Source of the DNA: Cupriavidus pauculus
GTDB taxonomy: Bacteria > Pseudomonadota > Gammaproteobacteria > Burkholderiales > Burkholderiaceae
Assembly (NCBI RefSeq): GCF_008693385.1
Contig: NZ_CP044065.1
Coordinates: 1,426,001 to 1,490,000 of the forward strand
Direction of reading: 5' to 3'
Length of the DNA: 64,000 nucleotides
A model generated the notes under the pieces. That model was not told the origin of the DNA. It did no database searches and saw only the letters and a program-made list of their open reading frames with translations. The stretch's first letter is position 1. The number at the start of each line of letters is the position of its first letter. Positions 3,229-52,260 of the stretch are shown here, piece after piece. The translations under genes were made by a program, and so were the position numbers.

Positions 3229-3815
3229 GCCGGCAGATCCTGCATCGCCGACGTCGGTAGCGGTTTGCCGAGGGCAGCCAGTTCCGGCGCCAGCAGGGTC
3301 ATGGCACGCGCCATATGGCGCGCTACCATGCCGCGCGAGATGCCCAATCTTACCGCGACTTCCTGCTGCGGCAGGCCATGCAGGCGATGCAGGATAAACA
3401 CTTCCTGACAGCGGGGCGGCAATGCGGCAATGCATTGCTCGAGCCGATCGACGGTCTGCCGGTAGGCGATGGCATCGGCAACGTCCGCGCTTGCCTCCGC
3501 GCCGCTAGCGTCCGCTTCCCATGCATCGGCATGGGTCTGGCGCGTCGATTCGGCGCGATACCGGTCAATCGCGCGATGCGTGGAAACATGCCGCAGAAAG
3601 GCGAGGGGCTTCCCGACATGGCCGGCCGGCGGACGCTCTAGCAATTGCACGCAGACGTCCTGCAGCACGTCGCGCGCGAAGTGCTTGTCCCCGAAGCGCC
3701 GGCGCACATGATCGACCAGTTCGTCGTAATGGCGAAGCAGCGCGGCGAAGAGTGACGAGGGCGAGGAGGGCGGAGGGTGAGCGGGGTCGCGCAGCACGGC
3801 CGGGTCGGAAGACAT
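3225..3815 (-). CDS. ECF RNA polymerase sigma factor, FecI-like
   Basis: Iron-starvation sigma factor expected to transcribe the downstream receptor gene. Seen: sigma region 2 (HYDELVDHVRRRFGD, DVLQDVCVQLL) and region 4 (ALPPRCQEVFILHRLHGL, then a helix-turn-helix LGISRGMVARHM). The protein is 196 residues from the ATG at 3815, a normal length for this family. A longer reading to 3869 would run over the Fur-box-like operator, so the inner ATG is preferred. It is first in a three-gene set with fecR and the receptor. Iron repression through Fur is likely from the operator at 3839-3862. Confidence 0.92.
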   Translation of the reverse strand: MSSDPAVLRDPAHPPPSSPSSLFAALLRHYDELVDHVRRRFGDKHFARDVLQDVCVQLLERPPAGHVGKPLAFLRHVSTHRAIDRYRAESTRQTHADAWEADASGAEASADVADAIAYRQTVDRLEQCIAALPPRCQEVFILHRLHGLPQQEVAVRLGISRGMVARHMARAMTLLAPELAALGKPLPTSAMQDLPA

Positions 3816-3838
3816 CAAAGTCTGAACCGCGCGAAGTA

Positions 3839-3862
3839 TAAATGACAATGATTCGCATTTGC
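3839..3862 (-). promoter_or_regulatory. Fur-box-like operator
   Basis: On the minus strand the stretch reads GCGAATCATTGTCATTTA, close to the Fur consensus built from GATAAT hexamers. It sits about 25-45 bases before the sigma factor start, where a repressor would block transcription. Inference from motif and position. Confidence 0.7.
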
Positions 3863-4016
3863 AAGCCATGACCTGGACCCGCCAGATTTACAAAGACTGG
3901 TCCTCAAAGTGCAATCGGGCTGGGGACATCGGGGGTCGCTACACGCGCGCTGGCGGGTAAGGGGCGTTGGCATGCGCGATGCGTGACGACACTGCGTCTA
4001 ACCACAGGAGCACCGT

Positions 4017-4565
4017 ATGAGCGAACAAACACTGAAGGGCAGAAAGGTCGCGATTCTCGTCACCGACGGGTTCGAGCAAGTCGAATTGCTCGCGCCACGC
4101 AAGGCATTGGACGAGGCAGGGGCGCAGACCAGCGTGGTGTCGCCGCAGGACAAGCAGGTCAAGGGCTGGAACTTCACCGATTGGGGCGAGACCGTCCCCG
4201 TGGATGTACCGTTGGCCCAGGCAAAGCCCGAGCAGTTCGACGCGCTGCTGCTACCGGGCGGTGTCATCAATCCCGATACCCTGCGCATGCAGCCGGAAGC
4301 GGTCGCGTTTGTCAAGGCATTCGTCGACGCGAAAAAGCCGATCGCGTCGATCTGCCACGGGCCCTGGACGCTGATCGAAGCGGGCGCGGTCAAGGGCAGC
4401 AGGATGACCTCGTGGCCGTCGCTACGGACGGACCTGACGAATGCCGGCGCGGAGTGGGTCGATGAAGAAGCCGTGGTCGACGGCAACCTCGTGACGAGTC
4501 GCAACCCCGACGATATCCCCGCGTTCAGCCGCGCGGCGATCGAAGCGTTCGCCCGGCGCGGTTAG
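4017..4565 (+). CDS. PfpI/DJ-1 family protein (YhbO/YraA-like)
   Basis: Cytoplasmic protein of the type 1 glutamine amidotransferase-like superfamily; relatives act in protein and nucleotide deglycation or as stress proteases. Seen: 182 residues, ILVTDGFEQVEL near the N-terminus (catalytic-region Glu) and the nucleophile elbow SICHGPW with Cys113. Length matches PfpI/YhbO. The start has AGGAG eight bases upstream. It is a single gene whose end overlaps the end of the opposite-strand thioredoxin gene by four bases. Confidence 0.92.
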   Translation: MSEQTLKGRKVAILVTDGFEQVELLAPRKALDEAGAQTSVVSPQDKQVKGWNFTDWGETVPVDVPLAQAKPEQFDALLLPGGVINPDTLRMQPEAVAFVKAFVDAKKPIASICHGPWTLIEAGAVKGSRMTSWPSLRTDLTNAGAEWVDEEAVVDGNLVTSRNPDDIPAFSRAAIEAFARRG

Positions 4566-5377
4566 GACTTTTCCTTTGTGCGCGACGGATAGGCACGCCG
4601 GATCGCATCTTCGAACGTCGCGCGCGAGAAACCGCCGATATGCGTGCTCACAAGCCGTCCCTCGGCGTCGTAAAACAGCGTCGTCGGATATCCCTTGACC
4701 CCCGTCGCGCGGGCGAGCGACAGTCGCGCGTCGTACATGAGGTTCTGAATGCGGACGTCGTGGTCTTCCAGGAATGCCTGCACCACCTCGGGCGGTTCGG
4801 CCTGATTGACGAAGACGACGTTCAGCTCCGGATGGGCCTTCTGCGCCGCGGCCAGCGCGGGCATTTCCGCGCGGCACGGCGGACACCATGTGGCCCAGAG
4901 ATTGACCACCATCGGCTTGCCGTCGCCGCGCGCCAGCGGTTGCGCATTGCCGACGCTGTCGGCAAGCAGCATCGCGGGTAGCGTCGCCACGGGCGCCATG
5001 ATGCTCGCCCCGACGGTCGCCGTGCTCCACGTGACCACCCCGGCCGCGGCCGCGACCAGCAGCGGCTTGCGCAGCGCGCGCTTGCGGAACAGCCACCATG
5101 CCAGCAGACCGCCGCCGGCGATGGCGCCCGCCGTCAGATCGAATCCGCGATCGCGAATATCGAGCACGCCGAAGAGACCCGTCGCCTGGTACGCTGGCAG
5201 ATAGCTGAGCACGAAGATCAGTCGTGCCACCACGAGCCCGAAGACCACGACCAGATAGATCAGCCGCTCCACGGGCGAGGTGTCCTTCACCAGACACCGC
5301 ACGCTGCCCAGCGCGACGAGGATGCTGAGAAACAGAATAAGCGGGCCTTCAGGCAGCAACAGCGAGCCAATCTTCAT
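4562..5377 (-). CDS. Membrane-anchored TlpA-like thioredoxin
   Basis: Predicted thiol-disulfide oxidoreductase acting outside the cytoplasm. Seen: several N-terminal membrane segments (about residues 8-30, 38-60, 82-98, 106-130) followed by a thioredoxin fold with WCPPC (Cys165, Cys168) and a GYPTT cis-proline loop. The N-terminal membrane part is longer than in plain TlpA/ResA and resembles the multi-span part of some DipZ- or Lgt-like fusions. The C-terminus overlaps the end of the PfpI gene by four bases tail to tail. The partner protein is unknown; cytochrome c maturation or periplasmic thiol repair are possible roles. Confidence 0.88.
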   Translation of the reverse strand: MKIGSLLLPEGPLILFLSILVALGSVRCLVKDTSPVERLIYLVVVFGLVVARLIFVLSYLPAYQATGLFGVLDIRDRGFDLTAGAIAGGGLLAWWLFRKRALRKPLLVAAAAGVVTWSTATVGASIMAPVATLPAMLLADSVGNAQPLARGDGKPMVVNLWATWCPPCRAEMPALAAAQKAHPELNVVFVNQAEPPEVVQAFLEDHDVRIQNLMYDARLSLARATGVKGYPTTLFYDAEGRLVSTHIGGFSRATFEDAIRRAYPSRTKEKS

Positions 5378-40975: not shown

Positions 40976-41399
40976 CTAGTAGTTTTAGAGCGTGGTGGGC
41001 TGTATTGCCGTGACAGGCGACTCATCGAACGTCCGCGCAAAACACTAAACTTCGATACACCGGCAGAACGATTCCATCATGCTGTTGCATCGACCGGTTG
41101 ACTCCACAGCCGGAAGCCGCCGGTCATTCGACATGAGGTGCAACCTGAGTCGTGTCATCGTCCGACACCTTGGCCAGCGGACTTTGGCGCATCGCGCGCT
41201 CGAGATCGAGGCGGTTGATCTGTCGCTGACGACGCGCATTCGGCGGAACAGGTGGAGCGCCTGGCGGCACGCCTGACATGGTTCGTGACGGCCCCTCTTG
41301 ATGGCGGTTGTCGCGTAGCGCCCGTACCTTCTGCGCGACCTCCAGTACGTGGCCGAGCCGTATGTTCGCGACGATCGCGTCTTGGTCGAGGGCTGATCC
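40976..41399. other. Intergenic stretch with IS remnant, entry to accessory region
   Basis: About 420 bases with no intact gene. The first 130 bases show nothing recognisable. From 41111 to 41346 the sequence matches the C-terminal part of the ISNCY-type transposase remnant at 51528-51761. Confidence 0.6.
41111..41346 (-). pseudogene. ISNCY-type transposase remnant (C-terminal fragment, left copy)
   Basis: Closely similar base by base to 51528-51761, including runs such as CATCGTCCGACACC and GGCGGCACGCCTGACATGGT. The minus-strand frame encodes the same tail as the right copy but is broken. Only the last 75 or so codons remain. With the right copy it brackets the accessory region in the same orientation. 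Confidence 0.75.
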
Positions 41400-41427
41400 T
41401 TATTGCTACCAATTTTAGTAGCAATAA
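41400..41427. promoter_or_regulatory. Perfect inverted repeat before the HTH gene
   Basis: TTATTGCTAC and GTAGCAATAA form a perfect 10-bp dyad with an 8-base spacer. The right arm runs into AAGGAG, the ribosome site of the next gene. This suggests an operator for the DNA-binding protein encoded directly downstream, or an RNA hairpin hiding the ribosome site. Confidence 0.6.
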
Positions 41428-41445
41428 GGAGTATTTGGTCTTAGA

Positions 41446-41880
41446 ATGTGCGCTATGCATGGAAACACATACACGGTTGAGGAAGTAGCCAGACAACTGA
41501 AGTTGCACGTCAAGACAGTGCTGCGCCATATCAAGGAAGGGCGCCTGCGCGCCTCTAAGATCGGTAAGTCCTATCGGATCTCCGGTAAAGACTTGGATGG
41601 CTTTGCTGGTTTGGCGGCACCGACGTCCGAGCAGGGCAGAGTCGTAGTACGCACGACGAGCATCATCGATGTGCCGAAGATTTCGGCGACATTTGCCGAC
41701 CGCATTGCAATCAGCCTTCAGGCTTTACTGATCAGCCGGCAGGAACGCGACGGGCCGATGCACGTTGATACGGTTTACAACCCGCTTGAGGGCGATCTGA
41801 AAATCATCGTGGTTGGGTCACCCAAGGACGCCGCAACCGTGCTGGAGGCGCTCGCGTCTTTCCTGGACGCGGCGCGATGA
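41446..41880 (+). CDS. Excisionase-family (HTH_17) DNA-binding protein
   Basis: 144 residues. An N-terminal MerR-like winged helix (YTVEEVARQLKLHVKTVLRH, IKEGRLRASKIGKSYRISGKDL) of the kind found in excisionases and small regulators, then a C-terminal domain of about 80 residues with no recognised family (VVVRTTSIIDVPKISATFAD and VDTVYNPLEGDLKIIVVGSP), which may sense a ligand. ATG at 41446; an ATG at 41455 is the alternative. The stop overlaps the hydrolase start as ATGA. Probable regulator of the five-gene operon, acting at the dyad just upstream. Confidence 0.85.
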   Translation: MCAMHGNTYTVEEVARQLKLHVKTVLRHIKEGRLRASKIGKSYRISGKDLDGFAGLAAPTSEQGRVVVRTTSIIDVPKISATFADRIAISLQALLISRQERDGPMHVDTVYNPLEGDLKIIVVGSPKDAATVLEALASFLDAAR

Positions 41881-42746
41881 TGGCGATGTTCAAGACGAAC
41901 CATGCCGAACGCGTGGCCTTGACGCGCTATCGCGAGCTGCTGGACGAATGGGACATCACTCATACCCAGCGCATGGTGCCGAGTGGTACCGGAGAAACCT
42001 TCGTGCTCTCATGCGGCCCTGTCGACGGGCCGCCGCTGGTGCTGCTGCACGGTGCCCAGGCCAACTCGGCTAGCTGGCTGGCGGATGCGGCCACATGGTC
42101 GCAGCAGTTCCGTGTCCATATCCTCGACATTCCAGGTGAACCCGGCCTGAGTACGGCTTCCCGTCTTGTCCCGATCGATGGCGCGGCCGTGCCCTGGCTC
42201 GACGAAGTGATGGACGCGCTGGGACTGGCGAAGGCCTCCTTCGTTGGCATTTCACTTGGCGCGTGGATAGCGTTGAACTTCGCGATATCGCGTCCTGCGC
42301 GGGTCGCGCAGTTGGCCCTCATCTCGCCTGCGGGCATAGGGCGGCAGCGTCCATTCCTGCTCAAGGCCTGGCCTTATCTAATGCTCGGACAGTGGGGGCT
42401 GCGCAGGATCCGCACCATGGTCATCGGTCCTGTTGCCGGCAAGCTGTCGCCTTTCCATGCCAAGGTTGCAGCGCTCATGGAGTACATCGGCTTGCATGTG
42501 CGCATCCGGCCCTTCGTGCTACCAAGATTCAGCGATGCCGCGCTGCGTTCGCTGGGCATGCCGGTCGTGGCCGTGCTGGCGGGAAAAGACGTGCTGCTTG
42601 ACTCCGGCCACACCCAGGCTCGGCTTCAACAGTGTGTGCCGCACGCCCGTATCCACTGGAGGCAGGACGCTTTTCACTTCATTCCCCGTGAAGCGGCAAC
42701 CATCCATTCATTCCTCCTCGCGCCTCAGACGCGCAGAGCATCATGA
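41877..42746 (+). CDS. Alpha/beta hydrolase
   Basis: 289 residues with the alpha/beta hydrolase fold: oxyanion region LVLLHGAQANSASW, nucleophile elbow VGISLGAW (Ser in GxSxG), a C-terminal acid in LAGKDVLLDSG and His in QDAFHFIPRE. No signal peptide, so cytoplasmic. It overlaps both neighbours by four bases (ATGA). Within the operon it could be an esterase, lactonase or amidase; no specific class can be read. Confidence 0.9.
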   Translation: MMAMFKTNHAERVALTRYRELLDEWDITHTQRMVPSGTGETFVLSCGPVDGPPLVLLHGAQANSASWLADAATWSQQFRVHILDIPGEPGLSTASRLVPIDGAAVPWLDEVMDALGLAKASFVGISLGAWIALNFAISRPARVAQLALISPAGIGRQRPFLLKAWPYLMLGQWGLRRIRTMVIGPVAGKLSPFHAKVAALMEYIGLHVRIRPFVLPRFSDAALRSLGMPVVAVLAGKDVLLDSGHTQARLQQCVPHARIHWRQDAFHFIPREAATIHSFLLAPQTRRAS

Positions 42747-43111
42747 GAAGCGTGATCGTCCAGTTCGGCTCGACCCGGGTATTGCATTGCCCCGCCGAGG
42801 AAGAGCGTATTGCCAGCGAAGGCGATACGGACGCCGTCCTCGGCGCAGCGTGGGAGCATCGCGCGCATCTGGTGGCCATCGATACAAGCCGCCTGGACGA
42901 TGCCTTCTTCGATTTGTCGTCCGGACTGGCGGGCCGCATTGTCCAACGCTTCGTGAACTATCGCATACCGCTCGCCATCCTCGGCGATATCGGTCCCCAC
43001 CTGCATAGGAGTCGGGCACTTGCAGACTATTTGCGGGAATCCAATCGTGGCAGCGCCGTTTGGTTTCTTGACAGTCTCACGGATCTGGAAACCCGACTCC
43101 TGGAGAAGTAG
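42743..43111 (+). CDS. DUF4180 domain protein
   Basis: 122 residues fitting the DUF4180 pattern: EEERIASEGDTDAVLGAAWE, a middle LDDAFFDLSSGLAGRIVQRF and VNYRIPLAILGDIGPHL. DUF4180 proteins are small cytoplasmic proteins of unknown biochemical role that often sit near small-molecule or stress genes. It overlaps the hydrolase by four bases; two bases separate it from the beta-lactamase gene. Confidence 0.85.
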   Translation: MRSVIVQFGSTRVLHCPAEEERIASEGDTDAVLGAAWEHRAHLVAIDTSRLDDAFFDLSSGLAGRIVQRFVNYRIPLAILGDIGPHLHRSRALADYLRESNRGSAVWFLDSLTDLETRLLEK

Positions 43112-43113
43112 AA

Positions 43114-43944
43114 ATGCGTAAGACATCGATTTTTGCGCTCCTGATCGTAAGTGGACTTCTTTCGACCGCGGCGTCGGCGCGGACGATATGCACGATCGTC
43201 GCCGATGCGTCGAAGAGCGGTGCCGTCCTTCAGAGTGGAGACTGCACCAGCCGGGTCACGCCGGCCTCCACCTTCAAGATCGCCATCAGCCTGATGGGTT
43301 TCGATGCAGGTGTCTTGCAGGACGAGCACACGCCGGCGTGGCCATATCAGCCGGGATATCCAGATTGGGGCGGCGATGCCTGGCGCCAATCCACCGACGC
43401 CAGCCGATGGATGCAGTATTCGGTAGTCTGGTTCTCACAGCGCGTGGCGCACCAGCTGGGAGAGGCAAAATTCCAACGCTATGCGCGCGACTTCGGCTAT
43501 GGCAACCACGATGTGTCGGGGGAACCGGGCAAGCGCAATGGAATGGAGGGGGCCTGGATCAATTCATCGCTGCGCATATCGCCGTCGGAGCAGATTGTCT
43601 TCCTGCGCAGGCTGGTGAACCGGCAACTGCCCGTCAGCGCGCACGCGTATGAAATGACCGGCAGGATCACACTGATTGCGGCTGCACTGGACGGGTGGGA
43701 AATCCACGGCAAGACCGGTACGGGTTCACCGGGTTCGGATGGTCGCTACGATCCGGCACATGCCTATGGCTGGTTTGTGGGTTGGGCCATCAAGGGAGGC
43801 CAGAAACGCCTGTTCGCGCGCCTCATCCAGGATGACAAGCCTACTCAGCCCAACGCCGGACTGCGAGCCCGCGATAGCCTGCTGGCGGACTTTCCCGTAC
43901 TGGTGGAGGCAATGGACGACAATCGCGCGAGTCGCCAGCGATGA
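43114..43944 (+). CDS. Class D (OXA-type) beta-lactamase
   Basis: Periplasmic serine hydrolase that opens beta-lactam rings. 276 residues with signal peptide to about residue 22. All class D motifs are present: Ser52-Thr-Phe-Lys55 (STFK, the nucleophile and the carbamylated lysine), Ser103-Val-Val105 (SxV), Tyr129-Gly-Asn131 (YGN), Trp148 before the INSSLRIS helix, and Lys200-Thr-Gly202 (KTG). Length is normal. GGAGAAG lies before the ATG. It is not close enough to name a known OXA group by eye. It is the fourth gene of a coupled operon and overlaps the acyltransferase gene by four bases. Substrate range unknown. Confidence 0.93.
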   Translation: MRKTSIFALLIVSGLLSTAASARTICTIVADASKSGAVLQSGDCTSRVTPASTFKIAISLMGFDAGVLQDEHTPAWPYQPGYPDWGGDAWRQSTDASRWMQYSVVWFSQRVAHQLGEAKFQRYARDFGYGNHDVSGEPGKRNGMEGAWINSSLRISPSEQIVFLRRLVNRQLPVSAHAYEMTGRITLIAAALDGWEIHGKTGTGSPGSDGRYDPAHAYGWFVGWAIKGGQKRLFARLIQDDKPTQPNAGLRARDSLLADFPVLVEAMDDNRASRQR

Positions 43945-45035
43945 GCGTCGGCCAGCGCAATGCACATATCGACGCGCTGCGCGGCGTGTCCATTCTGTTG
44001 GTGCTGTTCCATCATTTCAACATCGCTTATCCGCTCAAAGAAACGCTGCTGGCGACAGTCCTCGGTTGGCCCGTCGTGCACGCGATTGCCCGCAACGGCA
44101 ACTACGGCGTGACCATCTTCTTCGTGATTTCCGGCTATCTGATGACGGCCAACACCTTGCGTCGATGGGGGCGGCTCGAAGCCATCGATGCAATCCGCTT
44201 CTACGCGCTGCGGATGGCGCGCATTTTGCCGTGTGTCCTCTTGCTGCTGGCGATCGTTACTAGCTTGGCAGCGCTCGGCGGGACACTCTTTCAGAACCGG
44301 GGATTTGGCGAGACACCGTTACCGATGTGGATGATCTGCCTGGCGAGCATCACGTTCTGGATGAACGTACTGATTGCGCAGCATGGCTGGGTGAATTATC
44401 CGCTGGGGGTGCTTTGGTCACTGTCCGTCGAGGGGGTGTTCTACCTGGTGTTTCCTCTTGTTTGCCTGATGTTCCGCAGCACACGTCGCATCTTCGCCTT
44501 CTGGTTGCTGTTCGTCGTGACGGGCCCCTTGTACCGCCTCGCGCATCAGGGGGATGAAGGCGGCTTTCTCTATTCTTACATGGCGTGCTTCGACGGAATC
44601 GCCATCGGCTGCTGTACGGCGATCCTGACTCAACGAGGCACGTATCGATGGATCTCGAAGGGCTGGCTGCAGGGCACGGTGATGCTGGCAATGGCGCTGC
44701 TATACCTGTGCTGGCCCATTGCGCGGAGCAATGTGCTGGGCGTGACGGGAATGGCGCTGGGGACGAGTTTCCTGCTAGCTGGCGCCTCGAGGCAAACTAC
44801 ATCGACGGGTAGTGCCGGTCGCCAATGCCTGACCTTTTGTGGTCGGCTCAGCTACGAGGTCTACTTGTTTCACTTGATCGTCTTGGGACTGATGCGCACC
44901 GCCATTCCGGCGAACACTGCCTCATCCGCCCTAAAGATGGGGCTTCTCGCGACGTACTTCGTTTGCTCTTTAGTGGTGGCGCACGTCGTAGCCAATTTAT
45001 TTTCGCGCCCCTTTAGCAGGCTTGCATATGAATGA
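43941..45035 (+). CDS. Acyltransferase 3 family membrane protein (OafA/YrhL-like)
   Basis: 364-residue inner-membrane protein with about ten membrane segments. Seen: the family start HIDALRGVSILLVLFHHFNI with catalytic His, then YGVTIFFVISGYLMT and LGVLWSLSVEGVFYL. Members O-acetylate surface polysaccharides or peptidoglycan. It overlaps the beta-lactamase stop as ATGA. A role in modifying the cell wall or envelope would fit a beta-lactamase operon; this is inference. Confidence 0.92.
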   Translation: MSVGQRNAHIDALRGVSILLVLFHHFNIAYPLKETLLATVLGWPVVHAIARNGNYGVTIFFVISGYLMTANTLRRWGRLEAIDAIRFYALRMARILPCVLLLLAIVTSLAALGGTLFQNRGFGETPLPMWMICLASITFWMNVLIAQHGWVNYPLGVLWSLSVEGVFYLVFPLVCLMFRSTRRIFAFWLLFVVTGPLYRLAHQGDEGGFLYSYMACFDGIAIGCCTAILTQRGTYRWISKGWLQGTVMLAMALLYLCWPIARSNVLGVTGMALGTSFLLAGASRQTTSTGSAGRQCLTFCGRLSYEVYLFHLIVLGLMRTAIPANTASSALKMGLLATYFVCSLVVAHVVANLFSRPFSRLAYE

Positions 45036-45327
45036 CCACTTCTGGCCCCGATGACGGACGCCTCGCGGCGGGCTAGCGGCGGAAAGCTGTGAGCATAGCC
45101 CGTCCGTGGACGTCTCGGATCGGCCATGAGCCGCCATTGAAAGCCCGACCTCAAACTGTGTGCAATCTTTGAAAGAAGTACACTTAAGAGCGCCTTAGTG
45201 CCAATGGCAAGGGACCGGAGGATCCATAAAGGCTGGCGCCTGCATGGTTGCCTCTGGAGTCGGAGCAAAAGATTTGAACACACCCCAATTGCGACATTAG
45301 GAATAGCGCCTAGCGTCTGGAGAGATA
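45036..45327. other. Intergenic gap after the beta-lactamase operon
   Basis: 292 bases with no gene found. It holds one copy of the dispersed motif ATCGGCCATGAGCCGCCATT (45119-45138). GC drops from here rightward. A ribosome site GGAGAG precedes the next gene. Confidence 0.5.
45119..45140. repeat. Dispersed intergenic motif, copy 1
   Basis: ATCGGCCATGAGCCGCCATT; related copies lie at 47995-48017, 48869-48891 and 50470-50492, each in a gap between orphan genes. Confidence 0.45.
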
Positions 45328-45957
45328 ATGATTCACCTATTGTTGAATTCTGAGGCTCCGCCGGTAGCGGAGATTGCTACAAGATTTGGTGGGCTTCCGT
45401 TGGTTCCCTCTGAGTCGCAGTTCCAATGGCCTTGCTGTTCAACTTGCAATGGGGCCATGCAATTTCTCGGCCAGATCGTTTTGCATGATGGCGATGCAAC
45501 GCGTCTAGTACTTATATTCATGTGCCAGAATGACCCCGGACTATGCGAGGAATGGGATGCAAACGCCGGGGGAAATCACGCGACTGTCATGACGATTGAA
45601 GGCGAGATGCGCCTCGCCGATGCGCCACCTACAGGCGTAGTCCAACTGGATACGGTTTACGGAGCGCGAGTTGAAGTTCTCGAGGCCGCTGACTACGACA
45701 GCGCACGGCAACGGTGGCAAGACACCAACCCAAATCAACAGCGACAAATTCTAGGTCAGATTGAGGGGCAACCGTTATGGCTTCAGGCGGATGAATCACC
45801 AGTCTGCGATGCGTGCGGAGACGCAATGTCGTTCTTGGCCCAACTTGAAGAGGGGCCGGACTATAGAACTTCCATGAACTTCGGTGGTGGAGGCTGCGCG
45901 TATGTGTTCCGATGCCACTGTAGCCGACAAGGTGCAAAGCTGCTGTGGCAGTGCTGA
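45328..45957 (+). CDS. DUF1963-like protein
   Basis: 209 residues. Cysteine pairs typical of DUF1963/YwqG proteins: Cys36, Cys37 and Cys40 in WPCCSTCNGAMQFLGQI, Cys160 and Cys163 in VCDACGDAMSFLAQL, then Cys190, Cys196 and Cys198 in the tail, probably two zinc-knuckle-like sites. No signal peptide. GGAGAG precedes the ATG. DUF1963 proteins are often orphan immunity-like genes. GC is lower than in core genes. Confidence 0.75.
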   Translation: MIHLLLNSEAPPVAEIATRFGGLPLVPSESQFQWPCCSTCNGAMQFLGQIVLHDGDATRLVLIFMCQNDPGLCEEWDANAGGNHATVMTIEGEMRLADAPPTGVVQLDTVYGARVEVLEAADYDSARQRWQDTNPNQQRQILGQIEGQPLWLQADESPVCDACGDAMSFLAQLEEGPDYRTSMNFGGGGCAYVFRCHCSRQGAKLLWQC

Positions 45958-46195
45958 TGAGCATGGCCAGCCAGTCTGCTTCTTGGTCAAACGAGCGACT
46001 CTTGGCGATCGTCACTATTCGGCAGAAGGGATATCGGGCAGTTCTCTTTCACGGTCGTTCCGCCGTGCGCTGTTCAAATGTTGAGACGATACAGTCTACA
46101 GCCCGCCGCGGAGCGGCCGAAGTTCCCCGTATGCTTACCGCTACCGTTCTCCCCTACAATGCCTCTCATTCCATCAAGGCGACCGGGAGACGACA

Positions 46196-46852
46196 ATGGG
46201 CTGGTCTGACGCAGCGATTATCTTTGCAACGCTTTTCGGCCCCGTCTTTGCAATCCAAGTTCAGAAGTTCATAGAGCGCCGGGGAGCCAAGCGAGGCAAG
46301 CAAGAACAGATTTTCTTTACCCTCATGGCTACCCGTGCCGTCCCTACCTCTCCGGGACACGTAGAGGCACTTAATGCCATCCCCATTATGTTCTATGACC
46401 GCAATGTCCGTAGAACATCCAAAGAGGGGCGAGCGCTGGAAAAGATCAACTCCGGCTGGCGACGCCTACTGCATCATTTCAATGACCGGGCCAATTACGC
46501 CGACGACCAAGGACGCGAATGGGAGCGAGATAGAATCGCTAATGAGGTCCGCCTATTGAAAGACATGGGCGATTATCTAGGGTTCAATTTTGAAGAATTG
46601 GAGTTAGAGAATCAGCATTATTTTCCCGTGGGACAAGGCAGTCTGATAGAGGATCAAGAGGTAATCCGGCGTGGGCTGGCGACTGTCCTAAGTGGAAAAT
46701 CAGGTTTCCCGGTGTTTATTACCGGTGCCGCCGCGCCGCCACCTCAAACGGCCCCGACAGAATCCGCACCCGTGCCCGCAACGGCGCCCGCGAATGACGC
46801 CCCTGTGCCAAACGTAGACGGCGCGGATTCCGGCAATCGCCCTGCGGCGTAA
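46196..46852 (+). CDS. DUF6680-like membrane protein
   Basis: 218 residues. One membrane segment at the N-terminus (about 5-22, AAIIFATLFGPVFAIQVQKF), followed by a basic arm, then a cytoplasmic helical domain (about 40-165) and a proline/alanine-rich flexible C-terminus. GGGAG precedes the ATG. It is followed after 15 bases by the MauJ/HEPN-like gene on the same strand, so the two probably form a pair. The family name is recalled from the sequence pattern and is not certain. Confidence 0.7.
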   Translation: MGWSDAAIIFATLFGPVFAIQVQKFIERRGAKRGKQEQIFFTLMATRAVPTSPGHVEALNAIPIMFYDRNVRRTSKEGRALEKINSGWRRLLHHFNDRANYADDQGREWERDRIANEVRLLKDMGDYLGFNFEELELENQHYFPVGQGSLIEDQEVIRRGLATVLSGKSGFPVFITGAAAPPPQTAPTESAPVPATAPANDAPVPNVDGADSGNRPAA

Positions 46853-46867
46853 CCCAAAGGGACGACG

Positions 46868-47614
46868 ATGGACGATTGGCTTAACGTGACGGTGCGCGGA
46901 ACAGCTATATGGCCCGCCGAAGAAACCACTGTGCAATTCGGCGGACATACGCTGATCCTCAAGCCCATGAAGAGGGACACAGAGCAATCCATACACATTA
47001 ACTTACGGGGCACGTCAGAGATTGAGGCGCAGACGATCATTAACAGATTTCTTAGTCTGCTGTCGTGGATCGATGATCAACCCATGGAAAACATATTCGG
47101 ATTCTCTGGGTCACCCGTACCTATTCCCGCAGGTAGGGGAGACCGGGTTACCGCTCAGTCAAGGATATTCCCCTTTGGGCGCACTCTTGAGACGAACCCA
47201 AAATCCCGGCTTGCACTGGCATTATTCCGCGAGGCCCGGACTGTAAATAGCACTCCCTATGAATTTCTAGGCTATTTCAAGATTCTAAATATCGTTTGGA
47301 ATGATCGGTGGGCGACCATTAACGGCACCCGCGAGCGCCCCATTGTTGACGGGATACGTACGACGCTACCGCACCTGAAAGACAGCCGGTCACTACAGCG
47401 TCTCCGGGTAATCTCGCAGACACACACCGACTCCGCCGCCTATCTGTATGAGTCTGGCCGCTGTGCCGTGGCGCATGCCAATTTGTCCAATGTGGTGGAC
47501 CCTGACGACTTCGGAGACCTGCGCCGCCTGTCCGCCGACATGTGCATCATCAAGGAAATCGCAGAGTACCTGCTAGAGACGCATTTCGGTCAGTCCCGGT
47601 CAATCCTTGGGTGA
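46868..47614 (+). CDS. MauJ-like protein with HEPN-type motif
   Basis: 248 residues. The C-terminal helical part contains GRCAVAHANL with Arg198 and His203, the R-x4-H spacing of HEPN ribonuclease motifs, next to a helix full of charged residues. The N-terminal half is a mostly beta domain without a recognised motif. MauJ-type proteins are annotated in methylamine loci, but no other methylamine genes are here. Placed 15 bases after a membrane protein gene, it could be a nuclease or toxin part of a defence pair. Function is inference. Confidence 0.65.
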   Translation: MDDWLNVTVRGTAIWPAEETTVQFGGHTLILKPMKRDTEQSIHINLRGTSEIEAQTIINRFLSLLSWIDDQPMENIFGFSGSPVPIPAGRGDRVTAQSRIFPFGRTLETNPKSRLALALFREARTVNSTPYEFLGYFKILNIVWNDRWATINGTRERPIVDGIRTTLPHLKDSRSLQRLRVISQTHTDSAAYLYESGRCAVAHANLSNVVDPDDFGDLRRLSADMCIIKEIAEYLLETHFGQSRSILG

Positions 47615-47641
47615 CACCGGCAACCTCAGCCTCCAACTTCG

Positions 47642-47995
47642 ATGAAATCCGCGCTTTCCGTGAACACCGTGCTTGATGAACTAGCGACATTGGTAGGTAA
47701 GGACGTCGCCTTGGTAGGCATCCTGCGCTTCGAGTTCGAGGGGACGGCGCTGGACCATTTCCCAAAGTCAGAGCGCCGCAATGCGGAGAATGGCGGCCCG
47801 CTCGAGCCATCGAGCGTCTGGTTGAGCGTCGGGTCAGGCGCCCTTCAATTTAACGAAGAGCAGCTTCGGCGATGGCACGGAAAGCGAGTCACGGTGCTTG
47901 GCACCTTGCTCCGTCCCGATGGAAAGCTCGGGGGATGCGGCCATTTGTCAGCGTTTCCCGCTGAGGTGTTGGCACGGTCCATCGAGCGGCTCTAG
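47642..47995 (+). CDS. Small hypothetical protein, possibly immunity-type
   Basis: 117 residues, no signal peptide. It has an OB-like strand pattern (VALVGILRFEFEGTALDHF, KRVTVLGTLLRPDGK) and a tail GCGHLSAFPAEVLARSIERL. It follows the MauJ-like gene by 27 bases on the same strand, so it could be the third gene of that set. A copy of the dispersed intergenic motif overlaps its stop. Family not identified. Confidence 0.65.
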   Translation: MKSALSVNTVLDELATLVGKDVALVGILRFEFEGTALDHFPKSERRNAENGGPLEPSSVWLSVGSGALQFNEEQLRRWHGKRVTVLGTLLRPDGKLGGCGHLSAFPAEVLARSIERL

Positions 47996-48017
47996 CCGGC
48001 CAGAAGCGGCCACTCGA
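47995..48017. repeat. Dispersed intergenic motif, copy 2
   Basis: GCCGGCCAGAAGCGGCCACTC, variant of the motif at 45119, directly after the 47642 gene. Confidence 0.45.
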
Positions 48018-48124
48018 CCTCCTGACCTCGATCGTCGGCAATATATGCTTCAAGCCACTGCTATACGCGTCGTCGAATCAGACTCATGGCGTTGGCCTTC
48101 CACTTCTTCTATGGTGTTGCGTCG

Positions 48125-48811
48125 ATGAGCATCAGCAATTGGATAGCGCGCATACGTAAATATGCAGAAAGTAGCGAAGCATTCAACACGGTGAACTTGG
48201 AGGAGGCGCATAGGGTAATCTACCCTGTCGTCGATGCCGCTCTGAATCCGCGAGGATTCGAGGCAGTCTCGCCGCTGAAGTGGGTGCGATTCGACGGGTC
48301 ACCCATCCGCCAAATATTTGCGTTCCCAGCATGGAAAGGCGGTGTAATAGCGCCACGCTGGGGTCTGTCCATTGACTTTGTCCCACACGTATCGGGCAGC
48401 TCTGTGCGCTGGCACCGTACCAACAAATCTGCGATCTTTGATCTTGCCGTCGATGCACGCGACAGAGATTTGGACATCAGTGTTATTCGCGGAGAGCGCT
48501 TCGTTGCAGAGAAATCGTCAACGGTCGTGGAAGCCTCAATCGCACGGGCAGACGAATTTTGGCGACCGGTCAACTCGGTGGAGGATGTCGTCGGGGCCTT
48601 CGAATGGCTGCGAAGCCATCTGGCGAATGGAGGCCTGGGGTTCTACAACTACACCCAGCATCCGATTGCGCTCGCGTTCGTGCTCGCGAGGATAGGCGAT
48701 GCTGATGGCGCACGTAGGGAGCTAGATCGATTCCTAGAGGGGCGCTCAGCCGAAGACCCCGTTTCCTTACAACTCGGCAGAATGTTGACTAGAGCTACCT
48801 CCATCGCATGA
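48125..48811 (+). CDS. DUF4304-like protein
   Basis: 228 residues from the ATG at 48125 (MSISNWIARIRKYAESSEAF); an upstream ATG at 48086 would add 13 residues without support. Seen: PVVDAALNPRGFEAVSPLKW and FDGSPIRQIFAFPAWKGG, the pattern of DUF4304, a domain common in orphan genes next to toxin or immunity loci. Soluble. The next 300 bases hold no clear gene. Confidence 0.7.
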   Translation: MSISNWIARIRKYAESSEAFNTVNLEEAHRVIYPVVDAALNPRGFEAVSPLKWVRFDGSPIRQIFAFPAWKGGVIAPRWGLSIDFVPHVSGSSVRWHRTNKSAIFDLAVDARDRDLDISVIRGERFVAEKSSTVVEASIARADEFWRPVNSVEDVVGAFEWLRSHLANGGLGFYNYTQHPIALAFVLARIGDADGARRELDRFLEGRSAEDPVSLQLGRMLTRATSIA

Positions 48812-49119
48812 TGTCGGTAGTTGCCCTTAGCGCTGGAAAGCCTTCACTTGAATCGGTAGAGGGCCAAGATCGGCCAAGAGCCGCCACTCGATGAAGGGAC
48901 CAAAGATGGAGATTCACGGGAAGCAACCACCAGCTTCACGGCCGAAGGCCGCCGTTTGCCACGCTTACCCAGGCTCCGGATACCCCCCGTCGTTGCGCTT
49001 GTCCTGCTCCGCACATTGCCTTTAAGCTCACCCGCGATGGGCGCGTCACTGCAGAGTGAATGTCTTTGGTCCACGCCGCCTTGCCGCCGCTCCCCAATGC
49101 ACGCCGAACCCTGAATAAC
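48812..49119. other. Intergenic gap with dispersed motif
   Basis: About 300 bases with no supported gene. It contains copy 3 of the dispersed motif at 48869-48891 and a related palindromic GGCCGAAGGCC at about 48940. Confidence 0.45.
48869..48891. repeat. Dispersed intergenic motif, copy 3
   Basis: ATCGGCCAAGAGCCGCCACTC, nearly the same as copy 1. Confidence 0.45.
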
Positions 49120-49452
49120 ATGGTAGACCAGAAGAACTTCGCGTTAGTCGTCTCGCTGTGGACGTTCATGTTCGCGGTTATCTTCATACTGTGTTGGGGA
49201 TTTGTGTTCGGATATTCCCTTCAGAATGTTGTTGTTCTTGGCTCGGCCGGAGCCCTTATAGGTGCTATTGGGGCGCCGGAAATATACCCGCGACTGTTTC
49301 GATTTCCACGGCTTTGGCAAATGACCCTCGCAGTGCTCGGCTGCGTTCTTGTTGCAGACAATATTGGAGTGGGAACACTCGGCTATATTGTTGCGATAGC
49401 GTCGGGGCTTGCCCTTGGCTACTTCGCGCGCTTCTGGAGCCTCCGTGTTTAG
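49120..49452 (+). CDS. Small four-span membrane protein
   Basis: 110 residues from the ATG at 49120 (MVDQKNFALVVSLWTFMFAV). Four hydrophobic stretches (about 8-30, 33-50, 65-80, 83-105). No recognised family. An ATG at 49060 would add 20 residues, but neither start has a clear ribosome site. It lies among orphan genes of the accessory region. Confidence 0.55.
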   Translation: MVDQKNFALVVSLWTFMFAVIFILCWGFVFGYSLQNVVVLGSAGALIGAIGAPEIYPRLFRFPRLWQMTLAVLGCVLVADNIGVGTLGYIVAIASGLALGYFARFWSLRV

Positions 49453-49505
49453 CTCGGAGACCAGTGATTCAATCTAGCGACGAAGTCCGCGGTCGGCCAA
49501 TTTGA

Positions 49506-49936
49506 CTGGGTATCGAGACGGGGACGATAGAACCGAATCAAGCGAAGGAATGGGCAGATCAGGTGATCGCACAGAGCGAGCAAGCTCCTGGCGATCTTGT
49601 CGACATAGCTCTGAGCGCGACGTCCCGCAGGTACTTCTTGGGCTTGAAGAAGTGACTGGGGATCGGAATAGGGACAAAGGTTCGCGTTAGCTGTTCAGAG
49701 TTCTGATAGCGCAGCTTGACTATCGCCGCGATCCTCAGGAAGTGATAATGGCGGCCAAGCATTCTGCGATGAGGTCGGATATGGAAGGGACGCTCTACGA
49801 GTCGCTCTGTTCCATCGATAGCAGCCTTGACGTGGCAGAGCTCGGCTATTTCGGTACAGTTCCCGAAGTCATGGATGATTTGAGGCGGATTCTCGCACAA
49901 GTAGCAGCATCTTCTCCGCCTCCGTTATCTTCTTGA
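49506..49936 (+). pseudogene. Decayed immunity-like gene (frameshift and in-frame stop)
   Basis: Two frames together read one plausible protein of about 140 residues. The first part IEPNQAKEWADQVIAQSEQA-PGDLVDIALSATSRRYFLGL ends in a stop at 49653. The second frame carries LEEVTGDRNRDKGSR, then a TAG at 49688, then LFRVLIAQLDYRRDPQEVIM and later LYESLCSIDSSLDVAELGYF-GTVPEVMDDLRRILAQ. So at least one frameshift and one stop separate them, and no start codon remains. The wording resembles small immunity proteins that follow toxin genes. A short intact frame from 49748 may still be read. Confidence 0.55.
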
Positions 49937-49961
49937 CGATCACAACAGACAGTGCTTAAAA

Positions 49962-50405
49962 ATGAAGAAAATTGATTTATTCGGAAGGGCGTTCATCCTG
50001 CTTCCCGATTACTGGACGAGTTTCTTGGACGGCGATTGTTGCGTTATCCATGAACACGGCGACGATGATCGCACGCTTCGCGGAAAATTACTTTCCGTAA
50101 GCACAGGAGGATCCAAAGAGGGCAATCTGCCATTAATTATTCTGAGGGACGTCGCAAATAAAGATAATCCGCAAATTAATAAGATTGGTGACAACAAATA
50201 TTGTCACAGAGATGAAGATAATCAACCGGAAGGCGGGACATCAATTCACGGAATACGATGGTGTGTTGCCGCCATGTCAAATCAGGATGAGGTGGTATTG
50301 GCAATATTCACCCTCACGTTCCCCGAGTCGCTGAGAGATGACTTAGAAACGATTCAAATCGTAGCGATGTTAGATGAAGCGATAAATTCATGTGAATTTA
50401 TTTGA
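49962..50405 (+). CDS. AT-rich hypothetical protein
   Basis: 147 residues, acidic, no signal or membrane segment. Seen: FGRAFILLPDYWTSFLDGDC and YCHRDEDNQPEGGTSIHGIR. GC is clearly lower than in the rest of the window and codon use is different, pointing to transfer. A single gene in an array of orphan genes; family not recognised, possibly immunity-type. Confidence 0.65.
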   Translation: MKKIDLFGRAFILLPDYWTSFLDGDCCVIHEHGDDDRTLRGKLLSVSTGGSKEGNLPLIILRDVANKDNPQINKIGDNKYCHRDEDNQPEGGTSIHGIRWCVAAMSNQDEVVLAIFTLTFPESLRDDLETIQIVAMLDEAINSCEFI

Positions 50406-50469
50406 TTGGTTGTTGAAACATTATATTAGTTTGCAACTAATTAATTGCGAAAAAGGCCGAGCCGTCGAT

Positions 50470-50492
50470 CATCGGCTAGAAGCGGACCGTCG
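50470..50492. repeat. Dispersed intergenic motif, copy 4 (degenerate)
   Basis: ATCGGCTAGAAGCGGACCGTC, a weaker match, in the 153-base gap before the SMI1-like gene. Confidence 0.35.
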
Positions 50493-50558
50493 GCACGCCC
50501 CTCTATATCGTCGACAATCTGCCTCTAGGCGGCTGGAAACGATCCGGTAGTAGTCTCC

Positions 50559-51287
50559 ATGGCAAAAATGTCCAAATTCGCGCTGTATTCCGATAATCAA
50601 CTCCCAGTGGGCTTTATCTATCCCGCAGAAATCAAGAATTTTTCGTTAAGCGGTGAGTACCCACAAATTTATCCATGGTGGTTTTTCGATGCTCATTCAA
50701 AAGCGGGTGAACTTGCTTATTCGATAAGGCTGCATGATGGTCGGAACCTTATCCCCTTTGCGAAGGTGGATGATGGTAGGGGCGACATCGCGTGCTTCGA
50801 CGGTGACGATGTATCGGGGGACCCAAGAGTCCTCATGCTGGTACTGGACGAATCGGGGCGTTCCTATTCCTTCGTAAATTTCTCACACTGGAAAAATACT
50901 GTGCTGGAAGATACAACTTCCCAGTTTTTGATTGCTGCAGATTTTTTGCCGGTTGGGGAATTACTTCTGGCGGAACTGGCGAACAAAATTCCTTCCGTAT
51001 GTTTGCGCGATTGGGGCGAAGACGTAAGGCAAGCGTATGCACGTTCTGTCGCGCTCCTCGATATCGAGTTGCGTGGAATATTGGGCGTAGTTCATCTGAC
51101 CGATTGTGTCGCGTTTTACAATGCATATTACTGGAGCTTGATCTTTACGCAGCGTTATCAGACCCGATATGGCTCCGATTCCGGCATTGAACAGGAAGCC
51201 ATCAAAAGGCTGGCACAAGCACCGAAAGAGGTGGACTGGCAGGTGGTAGAGAGCATCCGGCAAGTAGCGCAGCGGAAATATAAATAA
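50559..51287 (+). CDS. SMI1/KNR4-like orphan protein
   Basis: 242 residues, low GC. N-terminal half looks like the SMI1/KNR4 fold, a common immunity-protein fold (LPVGFIYPAEIKNFSLSG, YPWWFFDAHSKAGELAYSIR, IPFAKVDDGRGDIACFDGDD). C-terminal half is helical and unassigned. No cognate toxin gene is seen nearby. It ends 240 bases before the right IS remnant. Confidence 0.7.
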   Translation: MAKMSKFALYSDNQLPVGFIYPAEIKNFSLSGEYPQIYPWWFFDAHSKAGELAYSIRLHDGRNLIPFAKVDDGRGDIACFDGDDVSGDPRVLMLVLDESGRSYSFVNFSHWKNTVLEDTTSQFLIAADFLPVGELLLAELANKIPSVCLRDWGEDVRQAYARSVALLDIELRGILGVVHLTDCVAFYNAYYWSLIFTQRYQTRYGSDSGIEQEAIKRLAQAPKEVDWQVVESIRQVAQRKYK

Positions 51288-51527
51288 CATCCATTTCAGA
51301 CCGCCCTATACACAACACTGATGATCACCTATTTCTGAGGTCGGACATTGCTGCCAAGGCGATGAATCGCCCTACCTCGGGGGCGTTGATACGACGAACA
51401 TGATTCGTCGCCGATATACGAAGTGTGCAAGCGCCGAGAGTTACGAGACGTTTCCGCGCCTGGGGGAGCCGTCTTACTAGGCCTTACGAATGACTGCTTT
51501 GGAGAAATCTGGGAGGCCGTTATGGGT

Positions 51528-52260
51528 CGGAAGCCGCCGGTCATTCGACATGCGGCGACCTGAGTCGGGTCATCGTCCGACACCGTGGCCAAAGGACTTT
51601 GCCGAATCGCGCGCTCCAGATCGAGGCGGTTGATTTGGCGCTGGCGTCGCGCGCCCGGTGTGACAGGCTGAGGGCCTGGCGGCACGCCTGACATGGTGCG
51701 CGACGGCCCCTCGTAGTGCCGATTGTCGCGTAGCGCCTGCACCTTCTGCGCAATCCCCAGTCGACCTCTGGATAGCGATAGTGGGTGGTGTAGGGCAGGG
51801 AGGTGTCGTCCGCCCATAGCTCGGTCGCACCGTCCGGATACTCGGCCACTTCGATGTAATGGTGGATCAGTTGCCGGTGCTCCGGAAGGTCATCGAGCAG
51901 ATACAACGTCTTGTCGTACTGGAGGCTCAGGCTATGGGTGACCTTGTGCCATTCGCGCCAGCAAAAGATGCGCCGTAAGTCCTCATGGTTGTGTATCGGC
52001 CGATGGCGTTGAAATCGCTGCGTGGAACCTTGGCGAACCGGGCGTTGAAGTCGGCGATGAAGGCGGCCGCATACGCGTTGGCGTCGGCCATCGAGCTGAT
52101 GCCGCGCAGGCGCAGCTCCTTCACCAGCCGGTCCTGCAGCGTGCCATTCATTCGTTCGACACGGCCCTTGGCCTGGCTCGTTTTGCAACCGCGGCAGCTG
52201 GCGGTGCCCGGGCTGGCCGCGCTGATGCGACACCAGGCCCATCGGGCCGTCCCGGTTCCA
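51528..52260 (-). pseudogene. ISNCY-type transposase, decayed (right copy)
   Basis: Minus-strand frames read in order: QAKGRVERMNGTLQDRLVK (catalytic-domain end, 52151 downward), then after a frameshift near 51960 WREWHKVTHSLSLQYDKTLY-LLDDLPEHRQL, then after another shift near 51760 a tail KVQALRDNRHYEGPSRTMSG. The N-terminal two thirds are missing. Its C-terminal part matches the left remnant at 41111-41346. It lies before the ArsR operon. Confidence 0.8.

Follow-up and report, generated by a model that had tools for sequence, protein, structure and literature searches.

A block of five genes at positions 41396 to 45047 of the 64,000-nucleotide stretch of Cupriavidus pauculus contig NZ_CP044065.1 analysed here (the window) was found to join two older modules. 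Module A comprises genes for a helix-turn-helix (HTH) protein, an alpha/beta hydrolase (ABH) and a DUF4180 protein, and module B those for a class D (OXA) beta-lactamase and an acyltransferase (AT). We consider it an evenly balanced proposition that the block is a mobile, autoregulated beta-lactam-defence operon, with module A as the control module in the place of BlaI and BlaR1. The five open reading frames (ORFs) were intact and lay on one strand (+) behind a 34-bp palindrome, with 4-bp overlaps at the HTH/ABH, ABH/DUF4180 and OXA/AT junctions and a 2-bp gap at DUF4180/OXA. Their coordinates, strand and spacing agreed with an initial annotation made from the sequence alone (one start is revised below), and Pfam supported all five. 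The features were as follows.

41396 to 45047, + strand: five-gene mobile block, with about 78-82% nucleotide identity by blastn to two other copies (loci L123 and L124)
41397 to 41430, no strand assigned: palindrome, putative operator, with half-sites TCCTTATTG / CAATAAGGA at a spacing of 25 bp
41455 to 41880, + strand: HTH_17 regulator (MerR/BldC/excisionase type) with a predicted C-terminal ferredoxin-like domain
41877 to 42746, + strand: alpha/beta hydrolase of Nap/YbfK carboxylesterase type with GISLG-124 (Pfam, PDB, motif)
42743 to 43111, + strand: DUF4180 protein with a predicted STAS-like fold and Ser-60 (Pfam, fold prediction, residue column)
43114 to 43944, + strand: class D (OXA) beta-lactamase with catalytic motifs (NCBIfam, PDB, motifs, tree)
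43941 to 45035, + strand: Acyl_transf_3 acyltransferase, its start 4 bp inside the OXA stop (Pfam, partner census, tree)

The initial annotation had allowed that the order would be accidental if the five genes were never kept together elsewhere, and two further genomes were found to carry it. Genome samples were drawn and the feature was rare, so that all counts given here hold for those samples, with the window's own genome included. DUF4180 was present in 1 of 60 genomes of the window's own genus and 2 of 369 of the class sample, and the HTH gene in 6 of 398 genomes of the phylum sample and, within the order sample, in the window's own genome alone (1 of 399). A scan of genome contigs with DUF4180 confirmed one locus of 125 pattern matches (the patterns being 8-residue words). 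Similarity searches with the proteins led to Herbaspirillum (DUF4180 71%, AT 79%, HTH 75%) and, two further family samples having given 0 of 130 and 0 of 60 before the right genus was reached, the HTH gene was found in 2 of 34 genomes of one other genus, which we infer to be Herbaspirillum. Both loci (L123 and L124) read HTH-ABH-DUF4180-OXA-AT in the order and orientation of the window, with amino acid identities to it of 75% (HTH), 75-78% (ABH), 71-72% (DUF4180), 82-85% (OXA) and 78-80% (AT). They were 93.2% identical to each other over one 3963-bp stretch in 16.4 kb, with unrelated flanks on both sides, and the similarity of the window to both spanned 41396 to 45047. Because this shared stretch stands between unrelated flanks, the five genes are a discrete mobile unit, about 4 kb long, that moves as one block. 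Purifying selection acts on each of the five genes, with dN/dS ratios of 0.13-0.33 between the window and its relatives and 0.12-0.50 between the relatives, DUF4180 being highest in both comparisons. The shared order and this selection bear out the proposal that the genes form one unit. A gene set for small-molecule biosynthesis or self-protection had also been suggested, and Acyl_transf_3 proteins and alpha/beta hydrolases can indeed be tailoring enzymes, but the block holds no core biosynthetic gene and moves without shared flanks; nothing was found in support of such a pathway, which we regard as very improbable.

Module B was examined by a census of the window's own family, in which relatives of the acyltransferase were present in 34 of 249 genomes. 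The gene directly 5' of the AT gene encoded a class D enzyme in 16 of the 34 (window included) and a class A enzyme in six; one genome held a class A remnant after a BlaR1 fragment, two a divergent OXA gene starting about 0.7-0.8 kb off; a divergent BlaR1-like gene was seen in one, and the remaining eight had no such partner. The bond between OXA and acyltransferase, which had been thought unusual, is thus a recurrent one in this family; a 2006 paper on a quorum-sensing screen (PMC1766932) already remarked, in its available part, that the B. cenocepacia acyltransferase gene directly follows one for a class D enzyme. BlaI and BlaR1 preceded OXA-AT in four of the 16 loci (L100-L103), and module A did so in the window. 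For the six class A-AT loci, the fetched stretch started inside a BlaR1 match in three (L053, L060 and L069) and was too short to judge BlaI-BlaR1 in two (L063 and L072). Outside this census, a Paraburkholderia caribensis plasmid (L037) carried a complete BlaI-BlaR1-class A-AT operon. One AT type therefore partners enzymes of two Ambler classes, each of them also found with BlaI-BlaR1, which ties it to beta-lactam stress. The sensor end of the BlaR1-like protein of L037 (1307-3064) scored 161 bits with Peptidase_S11 (DD-carboxypeptidase), and the protein also carried Peptidase_M56. In L094 (genome G242) the acyltransferase matched in two pieces and was seemingly broken, with the OXA frame upstream open.

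In two of the eight partnerless loci (L081 and L082) the last residues of OXA remained at the usual place, so that OXA decayed there and the acyltransferase stayed; an acyltransferase was likewise retained beside a class A remnant in L090. This hints that the acyltransferase has a use of its own, and would suit an envelope-remodelling unit in which an OXA-like enzyme works with the acyltransferase to edit peptidoglycan or a different glycan, resistance being a side effect. Such a unit would also accommodate the polysaccharide deacetylase gene that follows the gene of the related enzyme OXA-926 at 13 bp, and the response of a B. cenocepacia acyltransferase fusion to a quorum-sensing signal, described in the same part of PMC1766932. 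We nevertheless think remodelling unlikely, since class A and class D enzymes alike are paired with this AT, some with BlaI-BlaR1, which points to beta-lactams, and since OXA-926 is reported, in an excerpt of PMC10794605, to lower susceptibility to both piperacillin and cephalothin.

Trees were built for the OXA proteins (41 rows, 37 of them different) and the acyltransferases (40 rows). The five-gene OXAs formed one clade (100/99), which grouped at 97/91 with L100, a BlaI-BlaR1-OXA-AT locus of the window's genus, and with L096, in which OXA is divergent to HTH-ABH; the five-gene acyltransferases grouped with L100 at 94/88. One effector clade is thus accompanied by BlaI-BlaR1 at some loci and by HTH-ABH-DUF4180 at others, the trees giving no direction of change. 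A beta-lactam response unit, one of the two functions initially suggested, is the best fit, because the beta-lactamase-AT pair lies in BlaI-BlaR1 operons of some relatives.

Module A was looked for at eleven HTH loci beyond the five-gene ones, from five phylum-sample genomes, 5 of 14 plasmid records and one contig-scan locus; the Klebsiella, Bosea, Microvirga, Burkholderia and Paraburkholderia loci came from the plasmid collection. ABH and/or DUF4180 stood beside HTH at nine of the 11, as HTH-ABH-DUF4180 in L004 (Klebsiella plasmid), L097 and L099, as HTH-ABH in L042, L043, L044 and L096, and as HTH-DUF4180 in L041 and L006. HTH-hydrolase-DUF4180 is a recurrent module elsewhere and hence not unusual alone; the unusual part is the fusion of modules A and B, with module A where the sister operons have BlaI-BlaR1. 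A divergent class D gene adjoined the module at two of the 11 loci (L042 and L096), whose OXA proteins shared 56% identity, with 54% and 60% identity to that of the window. These two loci look like kin, and class D genes and module A look to have come together in two independent lineages, that pair and the five-gene block. A class A gene lay about 5 kb from module A in L004, and the Klebsiella cassette gave no match when compared with E. coli genomes.

Other genes were seen around module A. A divergent YqeY-like gene (about 125 amino acids) adjoined HTH in L042 (3543-3926), L044 (3563-3934), L095 (5476-5841) and L096 (within 3446-4153); GatB/YqeY is annotated at that place in the Bosea plasmid, and the L042 gene was without a Pfam match. 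A polysaccharide deacetylase gene (L042, 1558-2484) followed blaOXA-926 at 13 bp, and genes for MBL-fold hydrolases, 62% identical, lay near module A in L124 (oriented; 4446-5276) and in L004 (6424-7263).

The palindrome before the HTH gene was confirmed at 41397-41430, with two 16-nt arms that were 94% complementary, 24 bases before the HTH start, and it is probably an operator. The exact 34-bp half-site form occurred at a single place in the window's own 7.06-Mb genome, with one more place at 3 mismatches, which equals the control count. The half-sites TCCTTATTG / CAATAAGGA were taken from the window and scored in 13 other stretches 5' of HTH homologues, and in eight of these the score was matched by at most 37 of 1000 shuffles. 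With any spacing allowed, the best half-site pair lay 15, 25, 35 or 45 bp apart in nine of the 12 stretches having a pair, those of L095, L097 and L099 being off phase. Among 500 dinucleotide shuffles the mean number of stretches with on-phase spacing was 0.47 and the maximum 3 of 13, with none of the 500 reaching nine; shuffled stretches were often without any pair, which lowers this control count, but the concentration on one helix phase is still far above 1 in 10. Kin are present among the stretches (L042/L096 and perhaps L043/L044). When a strict palindrome around a single centre was required, at most 19 of 200 shuffles did as well in six of 14 stretches (window, L124, L006, L096, L044 and L041), and the strict palindromes of L044 and L041 were not at the operator position; the half-site test was used instead.

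For the HTH gene a start at 41455 is more likely than that first given (41446), the nearest homologue beginning at the second Met, nine bases on. Its excisionase-like character was borne out by HTH_17 (50.9 bits, Pfam cut-off 27) and TIGR01764 (excisionase; 49.7 bits, cut-off 28.8), and a structural model was assigned a BldC/MerR-like DNA-binding fold (VIA-align). Structure prediction, which the initial annotation had named as a check, gave a ferredoxin-like beta-alpha-beta-beta-alpha arrangement for the C-terminal domain of this protein and a STAS-like fold for the DUF4180 protein. PDB sequence searches with the HTH, DUF4180 and acyltransferase proteins returned no match. Pfam, run on 20 window ORFs, named no integrase. 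PADLOC matched the HTH protein only weakly to MAD1 (19.5 bits), and a role against phages was accordingly rejected. The hydrolase scored 50.9 bits with Abhydrolase_1 (Pfam cut-off 25.8), matched 4ccw (4.1e-26, residues 17-272), 2r11 and 4ccy in the PDB and, with homology over most of its length and GISLG at residue 124, was assigned to the Nap/YbfK carboxylesterases. DUF4180 (PF13788) was found at 119.4 bits (Pfam cut-off 25), and the column of Ser-60 held Ser or Thr in 13 of 13 sequences (10 aligned and 3 read by eye). Virulence on rice was compromised in a B. plantarii mutant in a DUF4180-annotated gene, as stated in the available portion of PMC10920822.

The OXA protein scored 167.1 bits with Pfam Transpeptidase (cut-off 22.1) and 350.4 with the NCBIfam class D beta-lactamase model NF000270 (cut-off 280), which places it in class D. 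All catalytic motifs were kept, as first noted (STFK-52, SVV-103, YGN-129 and KTG-200), and it is a probable beta-lactam-destroying enzyme. It fell outside the OXA-1043 family (NF040600; 394.1, cut-off 525), a term that occurs in papers on Burkholderia. The acyltransferase (PF01757, Acyl_transf_3) scored 98.9 bits (cut-off 31) over residues 9-347 of 364 amino acids. Peptidoglycan O-acetyltransferases of the two-domain OatA type combine Acyl_transf_3 with a C-terminal SGNH domain; the window protein is not of this type, Acyl_transf_3 being the sole domain found in its 364 residues. Neither BlaI nor BlaR1 adjoined OXA in the window, the upstream genes being HTH_17, abhydrolase and DUF4180, and in the rest of the window's own genome the OXA query matched only a 338-amino acid frame, a search that a BlaR1 with another sensor type would escape. 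A second class D gene of that genome (L002; G000:C3:610361-610924) scored 522.6 with the OXA-1206 model (class_D_Cupria; cut-off 420), which suggests Cupriavidus as the host genus and the window's OXA as an extra class D gene of its host.

In the proposed operon the HTH protein would bind the palindrome at its own promoter and repress or activate it, and would so set the level of one transcript for HTH, esterase, DUF4180, periplasmic OXA and membrane acyltransferase. OXA would destroy the beta-lactam, and the acyltransferase would acylate an envelope glycan or another periplasmic target. HTH, esterase and DUF4180 would most likely form the control module, in the position that BlaI (the repressor) and BlaR1 (the sensor) have in sister operons; the inducing signal might be read by the HTH C-terminal domain, directly or via DUF4180, and the esterase might make or remove that signal or handle a second toxic substrate. 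A fuller version is put forward only tentatively and may well be wrong: induction would be independent of BlaR1, with the esterase or phosphorylation of Ser-60 gating DUF4180, a STAS-like switch that would control the BldC-like regulator on phased half-sites; this system would have replaced BlaI-BlaR1 before the same OXA-AT and would spread as a 4-kb mobile unit.

Several observations weigh against module A as the control module of module B. Neither BlaI-BlaR1 nor module A lay within 4.5 kb of 11 of the 16 OXA-AT loci, nor was BlaI-BlaR1 found that close to L092, a class A-AT locus. The L100 branch is long in the AT tree, so that its grouping there is less safe and may be an artefact. The promoter scan gave no sigma-70 consensus promoter for the + strand, and the palindrome also counted as a terminator-like hairpin (six such sites found against 3.4 expected). 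Half-site scores were not significant in L042, L043, L095 and L006, and L123, itself a five-gene copy, had no half-site pair. In L095 and L098 the HTH gene was unaccompanied by ABH, DUF4180 or OXA, and HTH is therefore not a dedicated bla regulator. No half-site (at least 7 matches) was present 5' of OXA in either L096 or L042, and therefore HTH need not control OXA there. The DUF4180-OXA gap, 2 bp in the window, was 84-88 bp in L123 and L124, where OXA could have its own promoter; no half-site (at least 7 matches) was found in these two leaders either, and control of OXA is therefore plausible only via the operon promoter.

These leaders, the absence of half-sites before the L096 and L042 OXA genes and the lone HTH genes of L095 and L098 would all suit two separate modules travelling together, HTH-esterase-DUF4180 for ester or xenobiotic detoxification and OXA-AT for beta-lactams, with HTH controlling its own three genes or a basal level of read-through. 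The same is true of HTH with ABH and/or DUF4180 and no class D or AT gene in the fetched stretch (L041, L043, L044, L097, L099 and L006), and of OXA-AT without module A in 15 of the 16 family genomes. The 2-bp gap of the window, in contrast, makes separate control of OXA unlikely there, the five-gene unit is intact across genera under purifying selection, and OXA stands beside module A again in a second lineage (L042/L096). Independent modules are, on this evidence, a real possibility, if not the one we would choose. For the autoregulated beta-lactam-defence operon, the single unit and the beta-lactam response are the parts of the initial interpretation that stood; the singularity of the OXA-AT pair and the small-molecule pathway were given up.

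The operon genes had a G+C content of 57-63%, compared with 66.9% over window bases 1-38000. The stretch 3' of the operon had 54% G+C, and six of the seven ORFs from there that were run against Pfam were without a match; this region (45036-52000), which holds DUF6680 and MauJ-domain matches beside several ORFs lacking Pfam matches, is probably an island. A TonB-like neighbour was tried as a marker of occupied and empty sites, and relatives gave only partial, diverged matches.

To our knowledge beta-lactamase regulation takes few forms, namely AmpR, BlaI-BlaR1, two-component systems and RP3, and a literature search for excisionase-type regulators of class D genes found nothing. If the proposed reading is correct, a portable operon with another module in the BlaI-BlaR1 position would add a form to these, DUF4180 and the excisionase-like HTH family would gain a testable role, and a beta-lactamase-linked acyltransferase kept with two Ambler classes would join the envelope functions tied to beta-lactam stress.

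Among known systems, the BlaI-BlaR1-bla(-acyltransferase) operons of Burkholderiaceae (for example on P. caribensis plasmid 2) likewise have the regulators first and a beta-lactamase and the same AT type last, but the window is without BlaI or BlaR1 and has HTH_17, esterase and DUF4180 in their place. The Burkholderia pair of BCAM0392 and its upstream class D gene shares adjacent OXA and AT genes with overlapping codons, at named and inferred Burkholderia loci, whereas the copies examined were without module A, and the window OXA scored below the OXA-1043 cut-off (394 against 525). The Klebsiella plasmids NZ_CP099749 and pOXA926 share the order HTH-hydrolase with the window, continued by DUF4180 in NZ_CP099749, and blaOXA-926 adjoins the module in pOXA926; there, however, OXA-926 is divergent, a polysaccharide deacetylase gene follows and a YqeY-like gene lies between, and no helix-turn-helix or hydrolase gene is mentioned in the accessible text of the OXA-926 paper (PMC8430219). 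The window's HTH protein differs from DNA-binding proteins of BldC/MerR type by its added, predicted C-terminal ferredoxin-like domain and the lack of a PDB sequence match. ORF-RP3 of Ralstonia pickettii, which in the available part of PMC3660660 binds tandem repeats 5' of the class D genes OXA-22 and OXA-60, is similar, by its description, as a regulator of class D genes on upstream repeats, and differs in being reported there as a positive regulator of separate genes.

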